From: Algoriphagus sp. Y33
GTDB taxonomy: Bacteria; Bacteroidota; Bacteroidia; Cytophagales; Cyclobacteriaceae
Length of the DNA: 64,000 nt
Direction: 5' to 3'
NCBI RefSeq assembly: GCF_014838715.1
Contig: NZ_CP061947.1
Location: 1,240,001-1,304,000, forward strand
Shown here: positions 21,034 to 54,297 of the stretch, one piece after another
Position numbering within the stretch: the stretch's first letter is position 1
Layout: each line of letters begins with the position of its first letter
Program-made: the position numbers and the translations under genes
Notes under the pieces: model-generated
Told to the model about the DNA's origin: nothing
The model's database searches: none
What the model saw: the letters and a program-made list of their open reading frames with translations, nothing else

Positions 21034-21147
21034 ATGAAATCGAGCATGACGAAAATCGTCACACACTGCAATGATTATCTGCCATTCGAGATTCCATGGC
21101 CTGCCCTGACTGATCGGGGTGACCTATGAAAAACAAATTATAAACAT
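21034..21147 (+). repeat. Dispersed leader element, copy E1
   Basis: First of three related elements in this window (others at 53121-53236 and 52476-52657, reverse). It begins ATGAAATCGAGCATG, continues with a CGTCACACAC block, AATGATTA and an imperfect hairpin with CCCTGACTGATCGGGG, and ends CAAATTATAAACAT directly against the start codon at 21148. A 31-codon frame from the first ATG is not kept in the other copies, so the element is more likely a DNA or RNA element than a gene. Confidence 0.7.
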
Positions 21148-22098
21148 ATGAATATTGTTTTATTTACAAATTCCGGATGGAGTATTCCATTACTTATAGC
21201 TCTTGAGAAATCAGGGAAACTCAAGGCTATTGTTGTCCCTGATTTTGATCATGAGGCACTTAGGTATATAGATGATTTTGCTGCTCAAAAGGGAATCGCT
21301 CTCTTTAAAACCAATAAAAAGCAACTTGGTAAAGAATTGCTGAAATGGATTGGGGAGTTGGAATGTACCATGGGTATTTGTTTAAGCTTTCCTTATAAAC
21401 TCCCTACATCCTTATTAAGAGGAGTAGTTTTGGGAATCTTTAATTTTCATTTTGGAAGATTACCGGATTATGCAGGAGGAGATCCTGTTTTCTGGATGAT
21501 ACGAAATCAAGAGAGAACCGCTGTCCTTTCGGTTCATAAAATGGAGGAGTACTTGGATTGTGGTGAACTATATATTCAAGAACAAGTCTCAATATATCCA
21601 GGAGAAAATTATGGACTGCTAGGCGCGCGTCTCAGCCAAATGTCAAGTGGGCTTTTGGATAGATTGGTTGGTTTGGTAGAAGTAGAATTTAAAGGTAAAG
21701 CTATAGAGAGAAATCCTAGTACTTATAAAAGGCCAACTCAGGAAGAGTTGACCATCGACTGGAAAAACCAAAGTGCTGACGCAATAGAGGCACTGGTAAA
21801 TGCTTCCAACCCTTCCTATGGAGGAGCAATTACTTATTTTAGAAATACACTAGTGAGAATTTTGGAAACCAGTCCTGCGGATGTTCGCAATGCAGCTTTG
21901 CTAACTCCGGGAACAGTGGTGCATGCCAGTGCAAAGGAGGGATTATTTGTGCTTTGTTCTGATTATAGATTTTTGAAAATCAATATTATACAAACCCCGG
22001 AGGCTGTCGTGACCGGGAATAAGCTGGTAGCACTTGGAGTGAAACCAAACGAGAAATTTGGGAAGCATCAACTTCAAGCGGCTAAAATTGGATTTTAA
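21148..22098 (+). CDS. Formyltransferase-fold enzyme (Fmt-like)
   Basis: 316 residues related to methionyl-tRNA formyltransferase and sugar N-formyltransferases. The catalytic Asn-His-Asp triad is visible as N99 and H101 in FNFHFGRLPDYAGGDP and D137 in YLDCGEL. A C-terminal beta-barrel-like domain begins near residue 200. The N-terminal strand is MNIVLFTNSGWSIPLL rather than the usual Fmt FxGTPxFA, so this is probably not the housekeeping Fmt; a formyl-sugar or other small-molecule role is likely. It stands between a binding-fold protein and the giant adhesin, directly behind leader element E1. Confidence 0.8.
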   Translation: MNIVLFTNSGWSIPLLIALEKSGKLKAIVVPDFDHEALRYIDDFAAQKGIALFKTNKKQLGKELLKWIGELECTMGICLSFPYKLPTSLLRGVVLGIFNFHFGRLPDYAGGDPVFWMIRNQERTAVLSVHKMEEYLDCGELYIQEQVSIYPGENYGLLGARLSQMSSGLLDRLVGLVEVEFKGKAIERNPSTYKRPTQEELTIDWKNQSADAIEALVNASNPSYGGAITYFRNTLVRILETSPADVRNAALLTPGTVVHASAKEGLFVLCSDYRFLKINIIQTPEAVVTGNKLVALGVKPNEKFGKHQLQAAKIGF

Positions 22099-22135
22099 AA
22101 TCTTTTTATTGAGAGAACAATATTTTATTGACATT

Positions 22136-25100
22136 ATGAAAAAAATATTTTTACTATTTGCAGGGTTACTGTTTTTTGTTCCATTTCTAGTAAATGCGCA
22201 AACATTAGACAACACAATTAACGCTCCTGGGGATATTGCATTTGTGGCATACAATGAAGGTGCTACAGGGGGTGAGGATGGTTTTTCTTTTTTACTTATA
22301 GATAGTGCTCCCGCAGGAGCTGTGATTGTATTCACTGATGAAGAATGGACAGGGACAGAGTTTAGCTCTCCCACGGGTGAAGGTGATGTCACTTGGACAA
22401 ATAATACAGGAGCGGCCATTCCGGGAGGTACTATTATAGATATAGTCAATGCTTCTGATAATCCAGGCTCCCCTATTACTGCTTCTATTGGCGTTGCGGT
22501 GGAAACTGATGCCGGATTTAACACGGCAATCGGGGATCAGATTTATGCATTTACAGGAAGTCGAGCATCTCCAGGTGTTTTTTTGGCTTTTGTGGGAGGT
22601 CTACCTGCTCCTGCGACCCTTTCGGGGACCGGTTTGGTGGTTGGAGAAACTGCAGCAGTTTTTTCAGATGAAGGGTATTATAGCGGACCAACTACCTTCA
22701 ATGGCACGGCGATTAATTGTGCTGCCACTATCAATTCGATTGCTAATTGGGAATTAGGGAATTACGCTAATTACCCGGACAATCTGGAAGACAGTTTCTC
22801 AGGTTCACTTTTTTTCCCAAGTATCCCATCGGTACTGCTAAATACCAATCCGGTGCTTTCTTTCTCCAATAATACCGGTTTTGGAGACAAGATCGCAGGT
22901 GATGGTGATGGAGGTTCGGTATCTATCAGTGATATAAATATACAAGCCTATCCTATTAATAGTTCCGGAACAAGACTAACTGCCAATCTTTTGGAATACC
23001 ACGATGCATCCGAACCCGATTGGTCAAGTTATCCTGCGATAATTGTATATGGAGCTGAAGCTAACTTAATCTTTTACGGATGGAATATAAAATCTGAAAA
23101 TGGTGCCGAATTTGCATTTAATGGCATAGACTTCCACGACTGGGGTAATTACGATGGAGCTACTTTTACTATTGAGGGGTTTAAGGACGGAGTTTCTACC
23201 GCTACGTACGATTTTGACGGCAATACAGATGGCTCATATGTCTCTTTGTCTAATCCGGGAAATCTTCCAACTGCATTCTCTGATGTCGACGAGGTGTGGA
23301 TTTATCAAGCTGATGGTGCAGACTCGTATATTGCGATTAATAATATTGGAGTGGGTTCACCTGTGGTGGCTCCGCCGAATACGGCTCCGGTAGCAACCCC
23401 ACCGGGTGTTCCAGTGGTGGAGGAAGATGATGAAAACGTTCTTTTATCGAGTGATTTTGGAGTGACTGACTTGGAAGGGGATGATCAGACCTTGACCTTT
23501 ACCATTACCGGAGGTATTCTTACCTTAGGTACACCAGGGATCACTTTTGGTGGCGATGGAAACGGTTCTGCGAATTTCACCGCTGCCGGAACATTGATAG
23601 ACATCAATACAGCATTGATTGCGGCCACCTTTACGCCTACACCTGATCTATTCGGAGAGGATGCAGGTGAAATTTCTTTCACCGCTAATGATGGCAACTC
23701 AACTTCAGCGGTAGCGTCAGTGACTTTTGATATTATCGGGATCAATGATGCCCCAACCTTTGAAGGATTGCCGGCTTCAGTTACTGTGCTGGAGGATGCA
23801 GTAAATACTGACCTTAACAATGCCTTTTCTGATGCCACTTTTGCAGATATTGATGCTGGAAATAACATCGTTACATTAATTCTGAATGTAAGCCAAGGAA
23901 CGTTGAATTATGCTAACCCAAGCGGTACTGGTGTGAGTATAATTGGACCTGGCGCTTCCACTGGTACTTTTTCAGGAACAGTAGCTGATATTGAGGCTTA
24001 CTTAAATATAAATACAAATGTAGTCTATACACCCCCAACAAATCTGAGCGGCACAAATGTGGCTACACTTACGGTTTCAGCGAATGACAATGGAAATACC
24101 GGACAAGGAGGAGGGGAAACCGTGGTCTTGGGGCAAATCCAACTAAATATCACTCCTGTCAACGATGCTCCAACAGTTGCGAATCCGATTGATAATCAAA
24201 ATGCAACACAGGATGAACCTTTTAACTTTGTGGTTCCTACCGATACTTTTGAGGATGTGGATGTTGACGATGAATTAAGTTACTCTGCTCAATTGTCAGG
24301 CGGAGGAAGCCTACCGTCATGGTTAGAATTTGATACGGAAACTCAAACCTTCTCAGGCACACCACTGAATGCCAATGTAGGGATAGTGAGCATAGATGTG
24401 ATCGCTGATGATGGAAATGGGGGGACTGTCACGGATACGTTTGATATCATTGTCGCCAATGTAAACGACGCACCAACAGTTGCCAATGCAATTCCTAATC
24501 AAAATGCCACTGAAAATGCTGCATTTAATTTCCAGTTCGCCGCTAATACCTTCAATGATGTGGATGTCGCCGATATCCTGACTTACTCTGCTCAATTAGA
24601 AGGTGGAGCAGCTTTGCCGGCTTGGTTAAGCTTTGATGGTGCCACTCGAACTTTCAGCGGAACGCCTGGGAATTCTGATTCAGGAAATATTGATATTGAA
24701 GTGATCGCTTCTGATGGCAACGGAGGAAATGTTTCCGATGTGTTCCGGATCTCAGTAACAGCGGTCAATGATGCGCCAAGTATTTCAGCACCTTTTACGA
24801 TTACTTTGGATGAAGATCTTCCAGGGGCACTTACCGGCATCAGCTTTAGTGATTCAGATGCAGGTACCAACTTGGTTACGGTGACATTCAATGTAGGGAG
24901 CGGAAGCTTGTCTGCAGAACCAGGAAGTGGTGTAGCAGTAAGCGGAACTTCAAGTTCCAGAATAATTGAAGGAAATATCGATGCGATCAATTCTTTCATT
25001 TCTAATGGAGAATTGACATTCACAACTGCCCTAAATGCAACTTCTGATGTGATCTTAAGCATTACGATCAATGATAATGGCAATTCAGGAAGTGGAGGAT

Positions 25101-28100
25101 CATTAACAAGTTCTGCGAATGTCACACTTGATGTCACAGCAGTGAATGATGCTCCGGTCAACAGTATCCCCGGCCCACAGCAAACCGATCAGAATGTAAC
25201 TCTTGAATTCAGTAGTGGAAGTGGAAATCAAATCAGTGTAAGCGATGTAGATGTGGGATCTGAAGATGTAATTGTTTCGTTGACTGCTTCCAATGGCATG
25301 ATTACTCTTTCTACTACCGCTGGCTTGGTTTTTACCACCGGAACAGGAAGCAACGATGCAGCATTGAGCATGGAAGGTTCAATTGCAGATATTAATGCAG
25401 CGTTTAATGGAATGACCTTTACTCCAACAGCTGGATACAGCGGTCTTGCGGGTATTACGATCACTACGAATGACCAAGGGTTCTCCGGTTCTGGAGGTGC
25501 TCAGGAAGATGAGGATGTGATCACAATCATTGTTGATTCCATCAATCCTGTCGTCACCTCTGTAACTTCGTCCGGGGAAAATGGAATCTACAAAATCGGA
25601 GATGAGCTATTTATACAGGTGATTTTTGATCAGGCAGTTATTGTCAGTGGAGGGGCTCCCACACTAAGTCTGGAAACCGGAGTAACAGATCGGGAGGTTA
25701 ACTATACATCCGGATCAGGAACAAACACGCTTAATTTCAGCTATACCGTACAGAATGGAGATCAAACTTCAGACCTTGACTATACTTCCGCAGGAGCATT
25801 ATCCTTAAATGGATCAGTGATTCAAAATACCTCCGGGGACGATGCAATTCTCACCCTTCCGGCCGTGGGTAGTGCAAATTCCTTGGCAGGTCAAAAAAAC
25901 CTGGTTATCGACGGTGTCCGACCTACCTCAAACATCGTAGTTTCTGAAGATGAATTAAGAATAGGAGAAACAAGTTTAGTGACGGTCACTTTCAGCGAGG
26001 CGGTTTTTGGATTTAGTAATCAAGACCTGAGCTTTTCCAACGGGACATTATCCCCTGTGAGTTCAGCCGATGGAGACATCACTTGGACAGCCACTTTCAC
26101 ACCAACTGCCAATGTAGAGGAACAGACCAATGTGATAACTTTGGATAACACGGGGGTAGAGAATGCGGGTGGAAATGTAGGTACAGGAACCACAGATTCC
26201 AACAACTTTGGGATTGATACCCGTAGACCAACGGCAATAATTGTGGTAGCCGACACCCAGCTGGCAAGTGGAGAAACTTCCCCGGTGACCATAGAATTCA
26301 GTGAAGCGGTAACTGGTCTGACCGCGGCAGACTTTGCTGTACCCAATGGGGTATTGAGTGATCCTGAAAGTACAGATGGAATTACCTGGTCAGCTACTTT
26401 TACTCCTGCAGATGGAGTGGAGGAAGCAACCAATGTGATCACGCTGGAAAATACAGGCTATGTTGATTTAAGGGGAAATACGGGGATAGGGACAACTCCG
26501 TCCAACAATTACTTAGTGGACACCTCTGCCCCAACGGTAATTACTCAAAATATTACGATTCAACTGAATGCTGCCGGTGAAGTAAGTATTACCCCAGAAC
26601 AAATTGACAACAGCAGTACGGATGGGGTTGGTATAGGAAGTTTGACGTTGAATGTATCCGACTTCGATTGCACAAACGAGGGTGAAAACACGGTAATTTT
26701 AACAGTGACTGATGTCAACGGCAATAGCGCAATAGGAACGGCAACAGTTACAGTAGAGGATACTATTGCGCCTACTGTGATAACCCAGAACATCATGGTT
26801 CAACTTGAACCGATTGGGACCATAACCATTGCTGCAGAAGATGTAGATAACGGAAGTTCGGATAATTGTGGTTTGGCTAGTTTATCTTTGAGCCAGTCGG
26901 TATTTGGATCGTCTGATATTGGAGAAAATACAGTTACGCTCACCGTAACTGATGTAAATGGCAATCAATCAAGCGCAACTGCTATTGTTGAAGTGGTACC
27001 GCTTGATGTAACAGGTGTGACTTTTGAAAACGGTTCGTTTATTTATGACGGAACAGCTAAGTCACTTGCGATAGCAGGGGTACTTCCGGCAGGAACATCG
27101 GTTTCATACGATAATAACACACGAACGAACGTTGGAACGCAAGAAGTAATAGCAACAATAACAGGTCCTGGTTTTACAACGCTGGTATTGACCGCCCAGC
27201 TGACAGTTACCCCTGCTACAGTTACAGGTATTACTTTCGAAGACGGCAGCTTTGTTTACGATGGCACAGAAAAATTACTCGCCATCACGGGAACTCTTCC
27301 TTCGGGAACTTCCGTGTCCTATACCGGCAACGGCAGAACAGACGTGGGTACACAGGAAGTGACAGCGACGATCACGGGATCGAACTATACGGACTTGGTG
27401 TTGACCGCCCGGCTGACAGTTACCCCAGCCGAGATCACGGGAATCACGTTTGCAGACACAAGCTTTGTCTATGACGGCACAGAAAAGTCACTTGCGATTG
27501 TAGGAACCCTTCCTTCGGGAACATCGGTAGCCTATACCGACAACGGCAGGACGGAGGTGGGTACGCAGGAAGTGACAGCGACGATCACGGGATCGAACTA
27601 TACGGACTTGGTATTGAGAGCAGACCTGACGGTAACCCCTGCTACAGTTACAGGTATTACTTTCGAAGACGGCAGCTTTGTTTACGATGGCACAGAAAAA
27701 TTACTTGCGATTGTAGGAACTCTTCCTTCGGGAACATCGGTAGCCTATACCGACAACGGCAGGACGGAGGTGGGTACGCAGGAAGTGACAGCGACGATCA
27801 CGGGATCGAACTATACGGACTTGGTATTGACCGCCTGGCTGACAGTTACCCCAGCCGAGATCACGGGAATTACGTTTGCAGACACAAGCTTTGTCTATGA
27901 CGGCACAGAAAAATCACTTGCGATTGTAGGAACTCTTCCTTCGGGAACTTCCGTGTCCTACACCGAAAACGGCAGGACGGAGGTGGGTACGCAGGAAGTG
28001 ACAGCGACGATCACGGGATCGAACTATACGGACTTGGTGTTGACTGCCCGGCTGACAATTACCCCAGCCGAGATCACGGGAATTACGTTTGCAGACACAA

Positions 28101-31100
28101 GCTTTGTCTATGATGGCACAGAAAAATCACTTGAAATCACGGGAACTCTTCCTTCGGGAACTTCCGTGTCCTATACCGACAACGGCAGGACGGACGTGGG
28201 TACACAGGAAGTGACAGCGGCGATCACAGGTAGTAATTTCACCACCTTGGTATTGACAGCAGATTTGAGGGTAACCCCTGCGACCGTTACAGGTATTACT
28301 TTCGAAGACGGCAGTTTTGTCTATGACGGCACTGAAAGGTCACTTGCGGTTGTAGGAACTCTTCCTTCGGGAACTTCCGTGTCCTATACCGGCAACGGCA
28401 GGACGGAGGTGGGTACGCAGGAAGTGACAGCGACGATCACGGGATCGAACTATACGGACTTGGTATTGACAGCAGATTTGAGGGTAACCCCTGCGACCGT
28501 TACAGGTATTACTTTCGAAGACGGCAGCTTTGTTTACGATGGCACAGAAAAATCACTTGCGATTGTAGGAACTCTTCCTTCGGGAACATCGGTAGCCTAT
28601 ACCGGCAACGGCAGGACGGACGTGGGTACGCAGGAAGTGACAGCGACGATCACGGGATCGAACTATACGGACTTGGTATTGAGAGCAGACCTGACGGTAA
28701 CCCCTGCTACAGTTACAGGTATTACTTTCGAAGACGGCAGCTTTGTTTACGATGGCACAGAAAAATTACTCGCCATCACGGGAACTCTTCCTTCGGGAAC
28801 TTCCGTGTCCTATACCGACAACGGCAGAACGGACGTGGGTACACAGGAAGTGACAGCGACGATCACGGGATCGAATTATACGGACTTGGTGTTGACTGCC
28901 TGGCTGACAGTTACCCCAGCCGAGATCACGGGAATCACGTTTGCAGACACAAGCTTTGTTTATGACGGCACAGAAAAATTACACGCCATCACGGGAAATC
29001 TTCCTTCGGGAACTTCCGTGTCCTATACCGACAACGGCAGGACGGACGTGGGTATGCAGGAAGTGACAGCTACGATCACGGGACCGAACTATACGGACCT
29101 GGTATTGACCGCCCGGCTGACAATTACCCCAGCCGAGATCACGGGAATTACTTTCGAAGACATAAGCTTTGTCTATGACGGCACAGAAAAGTCACTTGAA
29201 ATCATGGGAACCCTTCCTTCGGGAACATCGGTAGCCTATACCGACAACGGCAGGACGGACGTGGGTACACAGGAAGTGACAGCGACGATCACGGGATCGA
29301 ACTATACGGACTTGGTATTGAGAGCAGACCTGACGGTAACCCCTGCTACAGTTACAGGTATTACTTTCGAAGACGGCAGCTTTGTTTACGATGGCACAGA
29401 AAAATTACTTGCGATTGTAGGAACTCTTCCTTCGGGAACATCGGTAGCCTATACCGACAACGGCAGGACGGAGGTGGGTACGCAGGAAGTGACAGCGACG
29501 ATCACGGGATCGAACTATACGGACTTGGTATTGACCGCCTGGCTGACAGTTACCCCAGCCGAGATCACGGGAATTACGTTTGCAGACACAAGCTTTGTCT
29601 ATGACGGCACAGAAAAATCACTTGCAATCACGGGAACCCTTCCTTCGGGAACTTCCGTGTCCTATACCGGCAACGGCAGGACGGAGGTGGGTACGCAGGA
29701 AGTGACAGCGACGATCACGGGATCGAACTATACGGACTTGGTATTGAGAGCAGACCTGACGGTAACCCCTGCTACAGTTACAGGTATTACTTTCGAAGAC
29801 GGCAGCTTTGTTTACGATGGCACAGAAAAATCACTTGCGATTGTAGGAACTCTTCCTTCGGGAACATCGGTAGCCTATACCGGCAACGGCAGGACGGACG
29901 TGGGTACGCAGGAAGTGACAGCGGCGATCACGGGATCGAACTATACGGACTTGGTATTGAGAGCAGACCTGACGGTAACCCCTGCTACAGTTACAGGTAT
30001 TACTTTCGAAGACGGCAGCTTTGTTTACGATGGCACAGAAAAATTACTCGCCATCACGGGAACTCTTCCTTCGGGAACTTCCGTGTCCTATACCGACAAC
30101 GGCAGGACGGACGTGGGTACACAGGAAGTGACAGCGACGATCACGGGATCGAATTATACGGACTTGGTATTGACCGCCCGGCTGACAATTACCCCAGCCG
30201 AGATCACGGGAATTACTTTCGAAGACATAAGCTTTGTCTATGACGGCACAGAAAAGTCACTTGAAATCATGGGAACCCTTCCTTCGGGAACTTCCGTGTC
30301 CTATACCGACAACGGCAGGACGGACGTGGGTACACAGGAAGTGACAGCGACGATCACGGGATCGAACTATACGGACTTGGTATTGACCGCCCGGCTGACA
30401 ATTACCCCAGCCGAGATCACGGGAATCACATTCAAAGACGGCAGTTTTGTCTATGACGGCACAGAAAAGTCACTTGCGATTGTAGGAACCCTTCCTTCGG
30501 GAACCTCTGTGTCCTATACCGACAATGGCAGAACGGATGTGGGAAGCCAGATGGTAACGGCAACCATCATGGGGAGCAATCTGGATGAATTGATATTGAC
30601 GGCTGAGTTGATAATTATGCCAGCTGATTTGAGCGTAGTCGCAGATGCAGGGCAAAGCAAGGTTTTTGGGGAAGAGGATCCCGAACTGACTTATACCGTC
30701 ACAGATTTTGGAGTGGGGGATGACGAAGCAGTGCTGGAGGGATCGCTTGAAAGAGAGCCCGGTGAGGAAGTGGGTACTTATTCCATCGTAATCGGAACCC
30801 TGACTGCGGGAAGCAATTATACGGTCGTCTTTACGGGAGCTGACTTTGAAATTCTTATGGGGGAAGCGGAAGAAGGGGATACCATCATCGGGTTTGCAGG
30901 CCAAAGCTTGGAGGTTCTCTGGGGTACACCTGCGGGTGGACTGGGAGTACCTGCGGAAGCAGTTGCGATTACCTCCAAGGGAGCGTTTGTAAACTTGGCG
31001 GTGGATTGGGACCTGTCGGGCTATGACCCGATGATGGTAGGAACCTTCATTTCCAAAGGTTCAGTGGAAGAGTCTTCGGGCTTGTCCAATCCGAATGGGC

Positions 31101-31702
31101 ACCAGCCAATTTTAGAAATCACGGTACTCGTGAAACCTACACCGCAGGACGTGACGCTGGGCTCAGACAGTTTTGTGGCGGTTCCTGACCTATTCTTTCA
31201 GGAGATCGGAACATTCACTGTGGTCGATCCCTCCGATGATCAACACACCTTGATTCTTCCGGAGGGAGTTTACGACAATGATTATTTCGAAGTACTTGAT
31301 GGGGTTTTGTTTTGGAGCAGTGCGGAACAGGCAGAAGGCAGAACAGAATTTACAGTTTCACTCAGGGTGACTGACAGGGCGGGGAATGTATTGGACAAAG
31401 ACTTTAATATTACCCGTGAACGTACTCCGCTAGAGCAGCTTGAGGTTCCCAATACCTTCACACCTGACGGTGACGGCATCAACGATACCTGGGGAGTGCC
31501 TGGGTTGCGCTACTATTCCGGGGTAAGGATTTCGGTCTTTGCCGTAGGCGGGGACAGAATGTTCTACACCGGGGATCCTGATGTAAGATGGGATGGTTCC
31601 TTTAACGGCAAAGAGATGCCGGTAGGCGCTTACCTGTATGTGATTGAAGTGGGAGAAACAGGCGGGGTAATACGCGGCATGCTTAATCTGATTAATAAAT
31701 AA
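22136..31702 (+). CDS. Giant T9SS-exported adhesin with cadherin-like, Ig-like and MBG-type repeats
   Basis: About 3,188 residues. Met 22136 is chosen because it opens a signal peptide (MKKIFLLFAGLLFFVPFLVNAQ) and avoids overlap with the previous gene. Order: N-terminal unnamed domain to about 280; a second globular domain to about 410; cadherin/VCBS-like repeats bounded by NDAP at about 415-1130; Ig-like repeats (RPTSNIVV..., RRPTAIIVV...) 1140-1465; two HYR-like repeats 1465-1620; 17 MBG-type repeats 1625-2831; a final MBG-like domain (FGEEDPELTYTV) and a cadherin-like domain; C-terminal gliding-motility/T9SS type-B sorting domain from about 3100 (PNTFTPDGDGINDTW). It should be exported by the T9SS and act at the surface. 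Confidence 0.93.
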   Translation: MKKIFLLFAGLLFFVPFLVNAQTLDNTINAPGDIAFVAYNEGATGGEDGFSFLLIDSAPAGAVIVFTDEEWTGTEFSSPTGEGDVTWTNNTGAAIPGGTIIDIVNASDNPGSPITASIGVAVETDAGFNTAIGDQIYAFTGSRASPGVFLAFVGGLPAPATLSGTGLVVGETAAVFSDEGYYSGPTTFNGTAINCAATINSIANWELGNYANYPDNLEDSFSGSLFFPSIPSVLLNTNPVLSFSNNTGFGDKIAGDGDGGSVSISDINIQAYPINSSGTRLTANLLEYHDASEPDWSSYPAIIVYGAEANLIFYGWNIKSENGAEFAFNGIDFHDWGNYDGATFTIEGFKDGVSTATYDFDGNTDGSYVSLSNPGNLPTAFSDVDEVWIYQADGADSYIAINNIGVGSPVVAPPNTAPVATPPGVPVVEEDDENVLLSSDFGVTDLEGDDQTLTFTITGGILTLGTPGITFGGDGNGSANFTAAGTLIDINTALIAATFTPTPDLFGEDAGEISFTANDGNSTSAVASVTFDIIGINDAPTFEGLPASVTVLEDAVNTDLNNAFSDATFADIDAGNNIVTLILNVSQGTLNYANPSGTGVSIIGPGASTGTFSGTVADIEAYLNINTNVVYTPPTNLSGTNVATLTVSANDNGNTGQGGGETVVLGQIQLNITPVNDAPTVANPIDNQNATQDEPFNFVVPTDTFEDVDVDDELSYSAQLSGGGSLPSWLEFDTETQTFSGTPLNANVGIVSIDVIADDGNGGTVTDTFDIIVANVNDAPTVANAIPNQNATENAAFNFQFAANTFNDVDVADILTYSAQLEGGAALPAWLSFDGATRTFSGTPGNSDSGNIDIEVIASDGNGGNVSDVFRISVTAVNDAPSISAPFTITLDEDLPGALTGISFSDSDAGTNLVTVTFNVGSGSLSAEPGSGVAVSGTSSSRIIEGNIDAINSFISNGELTFTTALNATSDVILSITINDNGNSGSGGSLTSSANVTLDVTAVNDAPVNSIPGPQQTDQNVTLEFSSGSGNQISVSDVDVGSEDVIVSLTASNGMITLSTTAGLVFTTGTGSNDAALSMEGSIADINAAFNGMTFTPTAGYSGLAGITITTNDQGFSGSGGAQEDEDVITIIVDSINPVVTSVTSSGENGIYKIGDELFIQVIFDQAVIVSGGAPTLSLETGVTDREVNYTSGSGTNTLNFSYTVQNGDQTSDLDYTSAGALSLNGSVIQNTSGDDAILTLPAVGSANSLAGQKNLVIDGVRPTSNIVVSEDELRIGETSLVTVTFSEAVFGFSNQDLSFSNGTLSPVSSADGDITWTATFTPTANVEEQTNVITLDNTGVENAGGNVGTGTTDSNNFGIDTRRPTAIIVVADTQLASGETSPVTIEFSEAVTGLTAADFAVPNGVLSDPESTDGITWSATFTPADGVEEATNVITLENTGYVDLRGNTGIGTTPSNNYLVDTSAPTVITQNITIQLNAAGEVSITPEQIDNSSTDGVGIGSLTLNVSDFDCTNEGENTVILTVTDVNGNSAIGTATVTVEDTIAPTVITQNIMVQLEPIGTITIAAEDVDNGSSDNCGLASLSLSQSVFGSSDIGENTVTLTVTDVNGNQSSATAIVEVVPLDVTGVTFENGSFIYDGTAKSLAIAGVLPAGTSVSYDNNTRTNVGTQEVIATITGPGFTTLVLTAQLTVTPATVTGITFEDGSFVYDGTEKLLAITGTLPSGTSVSYTGNGRTDVGTQEVTATITGSNYTDLVLTARLTVTPAEITGITFADTSFVYDGTEKSLAIVGTLPSGTSVAYTDNGRTEVGTQEVTATITGSNYTDLVLRADLTVTPATVTGITFEDGSFVYDGTEKLLAIVGTLPSGTSVAYTDNGRTEVGTQEVTATITGSNYTDLVLTAWLTVTPAEITGITFADTSFVYDGTEKSLAIVGTLPSGTSVSYTENGRTEVGTQEVTATITGSNYTDLVLTARLTITPAEITGITFADTSFVYDGTEKSLEITGTLPSGTSVSYTDNGRTDVGTQEVTAAITGSNFTTLVLTADLRVTPATVTGITFEDGSFVYDGTERSLAVVGTLPSGTSVSYTGNGRTEVGTQEVTATITGSNYTDLVLTADLRVTPATVTGITFEDGSFVYDGTEKSLAIVGTLPSGTSVAYTGNGRTDVGTQEVTATITGSNYTDLVLRADLTVTPATVTGITFEDGSFVYDGTEKLLAITGTLPSGTSVSYTDNGRTDVGTQEVTATITGSNYTDLVLTAWLTVTPAEITGITFADTSFVYDGTEKLHAITGNLPSGTSVSYTDNGRTDVGMQEVTATITGPNYTDLVLTARLTITPAEITGITFEDISFVYDGTEKSLEIMGTLPSGTSVAYTDNGRTDVGTQEVTATITGSNYTDLVLRADLTVTPATVTGITFEDGSFVYDGTEKLLAIVGTLPSGTSVAYTDNGRTEVGTQEVTATITGSNYTDLVLTAWLTVTPAEITGITFADTSFVYDGTEKSLAITGTLPSGTSVSYTGNGRTEVGTQEVTATITGSNYTDLVLRADLTVTPATVTGITFEDGSFVYDGTEKSLAIVGTLPSGTSVAYTGNGRTDVGTQEVTAAITGSNYTDLVLRADLTVTPATVTGITFEDGSFVYDGTEKLLAITGTLPSGTSVSYTDNGRTDVGTQEVTATITGSNYTDLVLTARLTITPAEITGITFEDISFVYDGTEKSLEIMGTLPSGTSVSYTDNGRTDVGTQEVTATITGSNYTDLVLTARLTITPAEITGITFKDGSFVYDGTEKSLAIVGTLPSGTSVSYTDNGRTDVGSQMVTATIMGSNLDELILTAELIIMPADLSVVADAGQSKVFGEEDPELTYTVTDFGVGDDEAVLEGSLEREPGEEVGTYSIVIGTLTAGSNYTVVFTGADFEILMGEAEEGDTIIGFAGQSLEVLWGTPAGGLGVPAEAVAITSKGAFVNLAVDWDLSGYDPMMVGTFISKGSVEESSGLSNPNGHQPILEITVLVKPTPQDVTLGSDSFVAVPDLFFQEIGTFTVVDPSDDQHTLILPEGVYDNDYFEVLDGVLFWSSAEQAEGRTEFTVSLRVTDRAGNVLDKDFNITRERTPLEQLEVPNTFTPDGDGINDTWGVPGLRYYSGVRISVFAVGGDRMFYTGDPDVRWDGSFNGKEMPVGAYLYVIEVGETGGVIRGMLNLINK
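27008..30628 (+). repeat. Seventeen in-frame 213-bp tandem repeats in the giant adhesin
   Basis: Each unit encodes 71 residues, starting (V/I)TGITF and ending L-(V/I)TPA(T/E/D). The count of 17 units of 213 bp fits the span exactly. The first and last units are the most divergent, inner ones nearly identical. Two unit types alternate irregularly (EDGSFVYDG and ADTSFVYDG). Units 4 and 12 are identical in protein, and 8-9 closely match 14-15, showing multi-unit duplications. Likely prone to copy-number change and misassembly. Confidence 0.95.
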
Positions 31703-51713: not shown

Positions 51714-52475
51714 TTATTCTTCCATCAAGTTTTCAAAACCGTCTTTGATCTTTCCAACTGCATCAAAGGATGTGTCTATGTTGACTACTCCCTTTCCCAG
51801 TTCATGCCAATAGCCGTCTCCACATTCTATATAGGAACCACGTTTGGTTCCGGCAGTTTCTTTGGCAATCTCATAATTGTAATCCGGAGAGAATACCAAT
51901 TTCAATAGCTGAACTGCGTATTCCCAATTTATAATACGGGATTCATTTTTTGAGGCAAATACAGCTTCACGGGTAGAGAAGTTCATCGTGATCGAGCAAT
52001 CGACACTTTCTTCATTCGTCACCTGACGGTAATTTACAGTGAGCGGCGCTTCCTTCTTGGAGGTTTCGTAGATCGCCTGAATCACATCCTGAGCCAGCAT
52101 CTGCCAAGCTTCTTGGTCAGTGGGAACTTTTGCCTGACCAACTTTACCATCTTCTATAGCTGAAAGCGTAAGTCCGCCTTCATCTATATGCCTACCGCTC
52201 CACTTCGTTTTTTCGAACTCCATCGAAACCACCTTCTTCCAGACGAAGTCCAGTTTTCCTTTGAAGCTGTAATCATCATTGGGAGTAAATCCTTCATCTA
52301 TGATTTCCTCTTCGCTCAAATCTTCTCTATCAGTATAATGAATTTCCAGCTCGGCGATTAAATCAGAATTACTCCAATCAAGTGAAAGTCTATATACATG
52401 ACTATATGGAGGCGGGATAATTCCTGAATCGAATTCAATTACAATTCCATCTGTGTTGTCGTTACTCTTTTTCAT
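51714..52475 (-). CDS. Hypothetical protein of 253 residues
   Basis: Not recognised. Met 52475 (MKKSNDNTDG) is chosen because the frame upstream runs into repeat element E3. No signal peptide. The sequence is acidic, with IHYTDREDLSEEEIIDEGF, an ITMNFSTREAVFAS strand pair and a late SYIECGDGYWHELGKG. Leader element E3 ends at its start codon. It is downstream of the DUF2141 gene on the same strand. Confidence 0.65.
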   Translation of the reverse strand: MKKSNDNTDGIVIEFDSGIIPPPYSHVYRLSLDWSNSDLIAELEIHYTDREDLSEEEIIDEGFTPNDDYSFKGKLDFVWKKVVSMEFEKTKWSGRHIDEGGLTLSAIEDGKVGQAKVPTDQEAWQMLAQDVIQAIYETSKKEAPLTVNYRQVTNEESVDCSITMNFSTREAVFASKNESRIINWEYAVQLLKLVFSPDYNYEIAKETAGTKRGSYIECGDGYWHELGKGVVNIDTSFDAVGKIKDGFENLMEE

Positions 52476-52657
52476 CTGCTTATAATTTGCTTTTCCGCGG
52501 TCATAACTTGTCCTGTGACCAAGGAAACGGGATATCCGCCTATCGTCGGACAAGGAATCCATGCCTATGGCAGGCAGGTCGCAAGACTGTTAATCATTCT
52601 TGTCCCGAAGCAAGTTCGGGACAAGTTGTGTGTCGCTTACGACATGCTCGGTTTCAT
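52476..52657 (-). repeat. Dispersed leader element, copy E3
   Basis: Longest of the three copies. Head ATGAAACCGAGCATG then GCGACACAC; middle with a strong CTTGTCCCGA/TCGGGACAAG hairpin (52592-52618 region) and a second CGGATATCCCG-like palindrome; tail TATGACC...AAAGCAAATTATAAGCAG abutting the ATG at 52475. A consensus -7 box (52663-52670) precedes the head. Confidence 0.7.
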
Positions 52658-52691: not shown

Positions 52692-53120
52692 TCAGCGCAA
52701 TTCAATTTCAAAGCGGGTGGCTTTCCCCGGTTTTACTTTTTGACTGCATTTTTCAAATGAAGGAACTCCAAAAACTAAACTGGGATTGTTGGAAAACCCA
52801 AAATTATCTAAAGGATATCCGATTCTATTTTTGCGGATTTCTCCGTCCTCATCATGATCATGGAATACTGTAATAGCGTATTTGCCGATAGGCACATCGG
52901 TAAGCGTTTGCTTAGCAATGCCGTTTTCTATTGGGATAGTTACCATTTTCCAGGCATCCTCAACTGATTCCGGCCATCCTTTTTCCTGATCAAAAATCAG
53001 CACCTGAATCACTCCCTCATCTGAAGAAGTTTCCGAAATAATTATTTCTATAGTTCCGAAATTATTCTGAGAGGAGGAGATGTTCATTAAAAAGAATAAA
53101 ATTAAAAATACAGGTTTCAT
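52692..53120 (-). CDS. DUF2141 domain protein, secreted
   Basis: 142 residues with signal peptide (MKPVFLILFFLMNISSSQ). DUF2141 landmarks: IIISETSSDEGVIQVLIFD, the VPIGKYAITVFHDHDEDGEI block with acidic D/H cluster, and RIGYPLDNFGFSNNP. The family is an exported beta-sandwich of unknown role. Element E2 ends at its start codon and E3 begins 35 bp behind its stop. Confidence 0.92.
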   Translation of the reverse strand: MKPVFLILFFLMNISSSQNNFGTIEIIISETSSDEGVIQVLIFDQEKGWPESVEDAWKMVTIPIENGIAKQTLTDVPIGKYAITVFHDHDEDGEIRKNRIGYPLDNFGFSNNPSLVFGVPSFEKCSQKVKPGKATRFEIELR

Positions 53121-53236
53121 CTGTTTATAATTTGATTTTTAACGGTCATATAGCCTGTCCCGATTTTTCATCGGGAGAATCTCGCACTGAAAATAATCAT
53201 CCCTCTGTGTGTCGCTTGCATCATGCTCGATTTCAT
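53121..53236 (-). repeat. Dispersed leader element, copy E2
   Basis: Head ATGAAATCGAGCATG overlaps the menE stop (ATGA at 53233-53236), then GCGACACAC, GATGATTATT, a CCCGAT/ATCGGG hairpin, GACAGGCTATATGACCG and the tail AATCAAATTATAAACAG against the ATG at 53120. Over 20 of the last 35 bases match E3 and E1. It has no conserved reading frame with them. Confidence 0.7.
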
Positions 53237-54297
53237 AGTAATTCGATTGTTTTGAGTCTGTTTACTTTTCCCGAGCCGGTTCTTGAGAACTCAGGGATTA
53301 CAAAAATGTTTTTTGGGAGCTCGTATTTACCCAATTCCATTTTTAGCCTGATGGTGAGTATATTTTCATTTACAGCTGAATCTTTAGACTCTATAGCCAG
53401 ACATAATTTTTCACCCAGTTTCTTATCTTTCATTCCAAAAAAGAAGAATGCGGAATTGGGATAAAAACTGTGGATTAAACGCTCTGTTTTGGCTTCCAAC
53501 AGCTCGGGATGGAGCTTCACCCCACCGGAGTTGATGACAAAGTCTGCCCTTCCGAGCCAGCGAAATAAATCCTTATCGATCAACTCAACCAGATCATTTG
53601 TTTGCACCAATTGATTATTGCTTGATTCTGATTTCACCCAAAGTGCATTTCGTTCATCCAAACCAAATTCTACTCCCGGTAACATGCTGTAGATCAATTC
53701 ACCTGGTACGATTTTGGCCAGCGCAACATGGGATACTGTCTCAGTCATGCCATAAGTCTGATAAGCCTGAATATCGCTTGCGATGAGTTGGTGCTTTAAA
53801 CCCGTATTTAATGGAGCTCCACCTATTATCAGGTGTTTAATTTGCTTAAGCTTCACTAATGAAGACTTGTCCTTCAGTGAGGCTTCGACCTGAAGAGGCA
53901 CCATCGCGACAAAATCAGGAATGGCATTTACTTCCAAAAGAGGGTTTGACTTAGGTTCAACGAACTGAATGGAGCAGTCCCACACCTGCGCGCGCACCAA
54001 CATCATTTTGCCTGCAATATAGGCAGGATCTAGGCAACACAGTAAAGTACTAGCTCCATCGGTTTTGAAAAACGCCTGAGTTGACTTGGCACTGGCTATC
54101 ATTTGAGCCCGTGTGATCTCCATTTTTTTTGGAATTCCGGTGGAACCTGAGGTTTGCTGCACAAAGATGTTTTTACCTGAAAGCCATTCGCGACAGAATT
54201 GAACAGCGGCTTTCACATAGTCGGGAAAATCATCGGGAGTAGTTTCAAAGTCTTCCTTTGTGATCAATGCGTAGTTGTCGAAAATCAGTTGAAACAT
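53233..54297 (-). CDS. menE: o-Succinylbenzoate-CoA ligase-like AMP-binding enzyme
   Basis: 354 residues of the adenylate-forming family, short MenE form found in Bacteroidota. Adenylate motif QQTSGSTGIPKKMEI, substrate strand AYQTYGMTETVSHVAL, hinge and GRADFVINSGGVKLHPELLE, and the C-terminal catalytic lysine in SRTGSGKVNRLK. It should activate o-succinylbenzoate with CoA in menaquinone synthesis. The divergent menB next to it supports this. Its stop overlaps the head of repeat element E2. Confidence 0.9.
   Translation of the reverse strand: MFQLIFDNYALITKEDFETTPDDFPDYVKAAVQFCREWLSGKNIFVQQTSGSTGIPKKMEITRAQMIASAKSTQAFFKTDGASTLLCCLDPAYIAGKMMLVRAQVWDCSIQFVEPKSNPLLEVNAIPDFVAMVPLQVEASLKDKSSLVKLKQIKHLIIGGAPLNTGLKHQLIASDIQAYQTYGMTETVSHVALAKIVPGELIYSMLPGVEFGLDERNALWVKSESSNNQLVQTNDLVELIDKDLFRWLGRADFVINSGGVKLHPELLEAKTERLIHSFYPNSAFFFFGMKDKKLGEKLCLAIESKDSAVNENILTIRLKMELGKYELPKNIFVIPEFSRTGSGKVNRLKTIELL

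Follow-up and report, generated by a model that had tools for sequence, protein, structure and literature searches.

To our knowledge, members of the IS200/IS605 family generate no target duplication. Single-strand transposition in this family, including IS608, involves a short fixed target beside the left end, subterminal folds and a right-end cleavage motif, as set out in two sources (PMC6006769, PMC5934647). The repeat family described here resembles these systems in that it adjoins a short fixed target on its left, is folded near both ends and closes on the right with a cleavage motif. It differs in that its target is ATGAA, mostly at start codons, in that its right end repeats the letters of the target, in that it has no tnpA in cis, and in that Y1 proteins are missing from two copy-rich genomes. 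As to the guide feature of IS200/IS605, an internal CATNTG of the element pairs with the right end, and no tetranucleotide guide was established at the foot of a hairpin.

REP elements are defined by a foot GT[AG]G 5' of the hairpin (PMC6006769). By eye, no GTAG is present in the consensus of our element, and GTGG is seen in some copies inside one strand of a hairpin (CATGTGG, helix H3 below) rather than at a foot. The element is like REP/REPIN sequences with their RAYT genes in being dispersed, high-copy, short, folded and devoid of a gene of its own; it is unlike them in joining start codons, in arraying whole units of ~91 nt head to tail and in not being the repeat found around the other RAYTs of the same genome. 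The same source describes the repeats of subclass 2.6 TnpA-REP of Bacteroidetes as having atypical secondary structures and flanking their tnpA gene (PMC6006769). Our element is likewise an atypical folded repeat dispersed in Bacteroidota genomes, but it was found on both sides of 0 of 66 Y1 loci, taken without regard to subclass.

The element is also short, non-coding and presumably mobilised in trans, as MITEs are. MITEs are short, non-coding elements with terminal inverted repeats and a target duplication, whereas the ends of our element, ATCGAGC... and ...ATGAA, form no inverted repeats by eye and no target is duplicated. In its behaviour the element resembles passengers of the IS200/IS605 type and REP elements, and its assignment to either group would be tentative. 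In a search of open-licence papers, none was recognised as describing it.

Copies and layout of the element

The window, i.e. the whole stretch of 64,000 nt analysed here, comprises positions 1240001-1304000 of a genome of 6,378,979 bases in a single contig (G000). A preliminary description had proposed that three intergenic stretches of the window (E1, E2 and E3) share a head and a tail, that the tail runs directly into the ATG of the following gene, in the orientation of that gene, and that the three genes are unrelated. All of this was borne out, the last by eye (Table 1). The head ATGAAAYCGAGCATG is exact at 21034-21048(+), 53222-53236(-) and 52643-52657(-), and the tail CAAATTATAARCA at 21134-21146(+), 53122-53134(-) and 52477-52489(-). 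With mismatches permitted, window counts were near chance for both the head (up to three mismatches, 6 matches vs 4.4 expected) and the tail (up to two, 10 vs 6.4), and the evidence is therefore the exact matches and the genome-wide counts. With up to one mismatch, G000 contains 167 head copies (87+80) vs 1 for the reversed pattern; the exact tail occurs in 51 copies vs 0 for the control. E1–E3 are copies of a real mobile element family, recently active in G000, that inserts at (AT)GAA.

Table 1. Positions of the element copies and adjacent genes in the window
Feature	Position	Strand	Basis
E1 left flank ATGAA (target); probably the old formyltransferase start codon	21034..21038	+	Sequence and target rule
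E1 element proper, ATCGAGC...CATATGAA; start codon regenerated at 21148-21150	21039..21152	+	Head-to-tail distance 114
E1 hairpin H1 (GACG...CGTC)	21048..21060	+	Folded; helix covaries across 55 other copies
Formyltransferase gene, start = E1 right-hand ATG	21148..22098	+	Pfam PF00551/PF02911; orthologs align at start
E2 left flank ATGAA; menE-like stop TGA (53235-53233) over old DUF2141 start	53232..53236	-	Ortholog overlap ATGA
E2 element proper, ATCGAGC...CAGATGAA; new start codon 53120-53118	53116..53231	-	Sequence, empty-site comparison
AMP-binding (menE-like) gene upstream of E2	53233..54297	-	PF00501
DUF2141 gene, start = E2 right-hand ATG	52692..53120	-	PF09912
E3 left flank ATGAA	52653..52657	-	Sequence
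E3 element proper, several additional hairpin inserts, end CAGATGAA	52471..52652	-	Length 182
Hypothetical gene, 253 codons, start = E3 right-hand ATG	51714..52475	-	No Pfam family

The consensus, read from 30 and then 121 heads, is ~91 nt long and consists of ATGAA followed by ATCGAGCATG, a variable hairpin, CACACACTGGGATGATTATAAGCCATGCGAGATTCCATNTGRCC, an A-rich stretch and AAATTATAAACAN ATGAA. The plain element accordingly runs from A-TCGAGC to CANATGAA, ~91 nt with the new ATGAA included. Copy length was 80–97 nt for 76 of the 121 heads, and 91 or 92 nt in 51 of these 76; the remaining copies, such as E1–E3, have additional hairpins. Head-to-tail copies are common, the tail ATGAA of one unit serving as the flank of the next. 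These head-based statistics derive from the 100 of the 167 G000 places listed first, with their neighbours, and are biased to left ATGAAA.

The additional hairpins, of the CCCGA/TCGGG type and others, are nested in E1–E3 (21094-21130; ~53150-53180; 52471-52652) and in some copies elsewhere in the genome, and seem to recur at a small number of sites, for instance between GATTC and CAT. They had been taken for the variable middle of the element; they are present in all three window copies, but are extra inserts of some copies only, perhaps another repeat family inserting into loops. At two further loci (L015, L018), element copies lie inside apparent copies of a larger repeat, with left and right flanks alike.

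Target and ends

As the head pattern itself contains ATGAAA, the flanks were examined with a core-only search pattern lacking either end. In G000, 109 of 118 core matches were readable, with (A)TGAAA on the left in 94 and ATGAA on the right in at least 99. For other genomes, 120 stretches were listed and 105 gave units, core matches near stretch ends being dropped; among the matches listed, 123 distinct units were read, and ATGAA was found on the left in 106/121 and on the right in 118/121. The left flanks of non-tandem units among these matches (n=55) were ATGAA in 41, another sequence ending in GAA in 10, AA only in three and ATGAC in one.

Where the left flank of a non-tandem unit was other than ATGAA, the right ATGAA was kept in 13 of 14 cases (among the matches listed), which assigns the right ATGAA to the element and the left one to the target. 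In units with a left flank other than ATGAA, this flank and the right end are unlike, so no target site was duplicated. Some copies, read by eye, lie within or at the edge of transposase genes rather than at start codons. The element follows GAA within one interrupted transposase gene (L096, G000), follows GGAA within another whose left part is decayed (L114, G016), and lies at an antisense ATGAA at the 3' end of a third (L160, G009). The target is thus a sequence rather than the start codon as such. Judged from the flanking sequences, the element prefers (AT)GAA as its target and carries its own right ATGAA. In the head as previously delimited, the ATGAA part is 5' flank and not element.

Empty sites and insertion at start codons

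The gene upstream of E2 is an AMP-binding gene that we take to be menE-like. It has a match in all 69 genomes of the genus (69/69), with E below 1e-40 in 66. The best 30 loci were read; one had no clean frame, leaving 28 readable relatives together with G000. In 21 of the 28 readable orthologs, the menE-like stop overlaps the DUF2141 start as ATGA, which is the empty site. The others comprised an overlap of a different kind (L281), an own element inserted at the same ATGA (G051), a probable decayed copy at the junction, identified by eye (G039), and junctions differing in other ways (G009, G019, G021, G061). A clear element was thus present at this junction in 2 of 29 readable genomes, G000 included. 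In G000, the left ATGA still holds the stop of the menE-like gene, and the DUF2141 frame begins 116 nt downstream, at the right ATG. The left ATGAA of E2 is hence the old start and the right one is that of the element, since menE-like translation ends at the left and DUF2141 restarts at the right.

For the E1 gene, the six orthologs examined share the start, and nothing resembling the element was matched within 130 nt upstream of it; they are only 39–42% identical to it, so the DNA junction (empty site) is not visible. A reading frame of 3214 codons (window 22058-31702) lies directly after the E1 gene and overlaps its end.

Across the copies, the TGA of the head ends an upstream frame of at least 130 codons in 10 of 115 heads vs 2 of 255 control ATGAAA sites (Fisher p 2e-4). 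The 3' junctions open a frame of at least 60 codons in 71 of 90 distinct cases vs 53 of 255 other ATGAAA sites, where the 90 derive from 93 rows after merging three with an identical 3' end. Some of these frames may extend beyond the stretch, and the control sites come from the same stretches as the copies, with many inside genes. In other genomes, 72 of 98 3'-most units open such a frame among the matches listed. Isolated units open a frame of at least 60 codons in 30/32 cases with left ATGAA vs 3/9 with another left flank (Fisher p 4.5e-4; matches listed), and one of those three has left ATGAC (among the matches listed). Copies inserted elsewhere keep the right ATGAA and mostly have no long frame behind them. 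Random placement relative to genes, named in the preliminary description as the observation that would count against it, was not seen; as to whether all copies end at starts, they do so more often than other ATGAAA sites, but not universally. The excess at gene starts may reflect targeting, selection of survivors, or both.

Leader frame and effect on the gene

A frame beginning at the left ATG commonly stays open for 28–31 codons. Its stop falls within -24 to +12 of the new start for 86 of the 121 heads, -4 and +4 being the commonest positions (60/121), and the tail has stops in all frames. In E2 and E3, the leader frame ends 47 and 161 nt upstream of the new start. Leader-frame stops near the new start would suit re-initiation, and translational coupling may be put forward as a hypothesis. 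A peptide-coding leader was rejected, as the third codon position had no excess diversity in either 91-nt copies (0.217/0.159/0.155 at positions 1, 2 and 3; 28 copies, 11 of them identical) or 92-nt copies (0.374/0.401/0.333; 23 copies).

The approach to the new ATG is A-rich. In Flavobacterium (F. johnsoniae), favourable positions upstream of the start are reported to be A-3, A-6, A-12 and A-13 (PMC6847099). The proposal of an A/T-rich ribosome entry agrees with this in the A at -6 and -12 of the tail, but not in the C at -3, where A is favourable.

Folded structure

Structure was counted on the sense strand of 55 copies, with the fold of one copy (L002) and the covariation of H3 as template, a choice that biases the count towards this model. 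The model has three helices: P1, in which AATC-GA-GCA pairs with TGC-GA-GATT around a GA/GA internal loop, conserved and with no covariation; H1 at the left, with a covarying tip; and H3 at the right end, in which CATNTG pairs with CANATG. In this model 94.4% of cells were paired. The covariation score was 0.114 vs 0.045 shuffled and at most 0.051 when slid, and three of five structure measures exceeded every shuffle, these counts being inflated by the relatedness of the copies. Pairs changed on both sides (3 vs 2.2) and further pair types (8 vs 7.4) were not above shuffles, and only three pairs, located in H1 and H3, carry the covariation. In H3, the N positions were complementary in 76/93 copies in G000 and 19/22 at other loci, with three pair types, and in 101/121 named-genome copies among the matches listed; copies with no recognisable head or tail had been dropped before these counts.

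Other predictions were less uniform. RNAalifold gave a poor consensus for the 55 copies (-1.8 kcal/mol), and an alternative inner helix (columns 36-40 with 60-64), which excludes part of P1 and H3, had 89.4% of cells paired. Among single RNA folds of five copies, the whole structure was the minimum in L002 only, and E1 and E2 were folded without H3; relative to shuffles, z was -2.07 for E1 and -1.08, -2.34, -0.51 and 0.30 for the others. In E3, the 5' strand of the start-covering hairpin is altered (TTATGACC). The internal motif was also considered as a partner of the base immediately 5' of the left ATG; this was rejected as not significant, since that base tracked the motif in 24/57 copies (again after dropping those with no recognisable head or tail) and 822 of 5000 shuffles were as high. 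Rfam gave 0 matches at the gathering score in the window, and for one typical copy three matches far below the gathering score, at chance level. Overall, covariation at a few positions supports candidate helices at both ends, whether formed as DNA or RNA.

A sister subfamily (ATGAAATCGACACGATTAAAATCATC...) has a different long inner stem, and 9 of the 14 copies examined (16 found) fold like the main family. It occurs at L007 from 1592 and 1692, L250 from 1413 and L343 from 1584, has the AATC/GATT and CATNTG/CANATG helices of the main family, and forms mixed arrays together with it.

Mobility and host range

Eleven G000 copies are identical over 96 nt, which indicates recent spread. Nine of the 11 lie directly behind an older unit (by eye), and seven precede a frame of at least 60 codons. 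A comparison of 117 related genomes showed abundant heads in the genus of the window alone, with 0 to 183 copies and, in many of its genomes, tens or more; 46 genomes from other genera of the order had 0–3 heads each. Among the matches listed, the core was found in the Cyclobacteriaceae genera Algoriphagus, Cyclobacterium, Lunatimonas, Lunatibacter, Pararhodonellum and Pleomorphovibrio, and also in Anditalea, which is not among the Cyclobacteriaceae genera listed.

Proposed explanation and alternatives

The explanation that we regard as probable is a miniature non-autonomous family that inserts 3' of (AT)GAA, brings a new start with it and is moved in trans as a single strand. The target, the carried right end, the restart at E2 and the arrays are evident from sequence comparison. 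Insertion takes place on the 3' side of a same-strand target, usually ATGAA and sometimes only GAA or AA, with no target-site duplication. When a start codon is hit, the old start stays on the left and the new start, after an A-rich stretch, lies on the right; such insertions would be tolerated, and copies would consequently accumulate there. Repeated hits into a copy's own right end build the head-to-tail arrays. The mobile form is most likely a folded single strand, with an HUH-type or similar transposase in trans that would read both end structures, as in IS200/IS605. Same-strand 3' insertion, no duplication, folded ends and a right end that repeats the cleavage motif fit single-strand transposition. 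In the mRNA, a ribosome from the old ATG would read the short leader frame, often stopping near the new start, and expression of the gene may persist by coupling.

A bolder version, possible though rather doubtful, is a start-codon-homing class whose single strand would capture ATGAA at gene starts and whose right end, a start codon within the terminal CATNTG...CANATG hairpin, would become the new start. In the mRNA, this hairpin would shut the new start until ribosomes from the old one translate the leader frame and open it, so that the parasite would be silent and expression of the gene tied to its original start.

We consider it unlikely that the element is a selected cis-regulatory 5' leader, riboswitch-like or a coupling device, kept before particular genes and spreading incidentally. 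The orientation with genes, the abutment on starts, the leader frames that often stop near the new start and the covarying hairpin, which would cover the start codon in mRNA, would all be accommodated by such a leader. Against it, few readable genomes have a clear element at the menE-like/DUF2141 junction, the downstream proteins appear unrelated by eye, Rfam matches are absent at the gathering score and at chance level below it, there is no codon-position signal, copies away from starts have identical ends, and the start-covering hairpin is missing from the E1 and E2 folds. The regulated structure suggested in the preliminary description was not upheld, given the sporadic occurrence at the E2 gene, the absence of peptide selection and a start-covering hairpin that is missing (E1, E2 folds) or altered (E3). 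The mobile 5' leader it proposed is mobile, dispersed and gene-oriented; a gene-adapted leader is not needed for the fixed junction, as the (AT)GAA target preference and the element's own ATGAA end account for it.

Search for a mobiliser

The element was linked to no transposase in the searches that follow. PF01797 (Y1) is present in G000, and gave no match in G014 (89 heads) or G037 (30 heads), both rated 100% complete, where later loss is possible; G022 and G026 have three Y1 matches each, yet 0 and 1 heads. Across 50 genomes, the correlation of copy number was stronger with genome size (rho 0.61) than with the count of Y1 matches (rho 0.39, p 0.005). PF04986 (Y2) is intact in G000 and G031, with a match in G064 and a fragment in G014. 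An IS91/Y2 rolling-circle element was rejected, as PF04986 had no match in the copy-rich G040, G019 and G037.

An ordinary REP/REPIN moved by a RAYT (TnpA-REP) transposase would likewise be high-copy, folded and mostly intergenic, and relatives of the RAYT at L096 occur in 70 of 117 related genomes. We nevertheless find it improbable, as the GTAG foot is absent and G014 has only a partial match to this RAYT. A decayed element copy splits the L096 gene itself (1370-1977) close to the 5' end, and relatives have the gene uninterrupted; it was rejected as the mobiliser, since the preceding copy interrupts the gene according to the orthologs. Four RAYT-like genes were found in G000, and the other three (L095, L286 and L287) have, by eye, different short palindromic repeats around them. 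Of the 66 Y1/RAYT loci, scanned for up to 1500 nt per side, none had the element on both sides of the gene, and element matches were present at four: inside or at the end of the gene at L096/L097, L114 and L160, and as two one-sided copies at L175.

Transposase neighbours were matched in 24 of 120 stretches from named genomes, 22 with L160 as the best query (among the matches listed). These L160 matches, not each of which was checked, are read as an open frame running into an element copy; the remaining two are L413 and L335. A viral match (L442) looks like chance.

An integron-like cassette, inserted at an ATGAA crossover core by a site-specific recombinase of the tyrosine or serine type, would give similar head-to-tail arrays with a single short shared core, and the 5' domain, whose stem of two helices has a variable tip and an unpaired spacer, would be of a suitable kind. 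Left flanks with only AA or GAA are tolerated, however, and no family was found in more than seven of the 120 named stretches (frames of at least 120 codons, among the matches listed), making this quite improbable. Retro-insertion of a transcribed leader by a reverse transcriptase is very improbable, because both ends are precise in nearly all copies (among the matches listed), although copies at gene starts would be read in the sense direction within probable mRNAs and it is the sense strand that was folded.

Implications

Insertion at a start codon is expected to damage the gene. Here, the target and the right end share five letters, so that a gene hit at its start receives a new start codon, which would explain how head copies could reach 167 and 183 in two genomes of gene-dense bacteria. 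Close relatives can consequently differ in their start sites, leader lengths and operon overlaps, a point of importance for gene annotation, and the element is a natural test of start choice in Bacteroidota without Shine–Dalgarno pairing.
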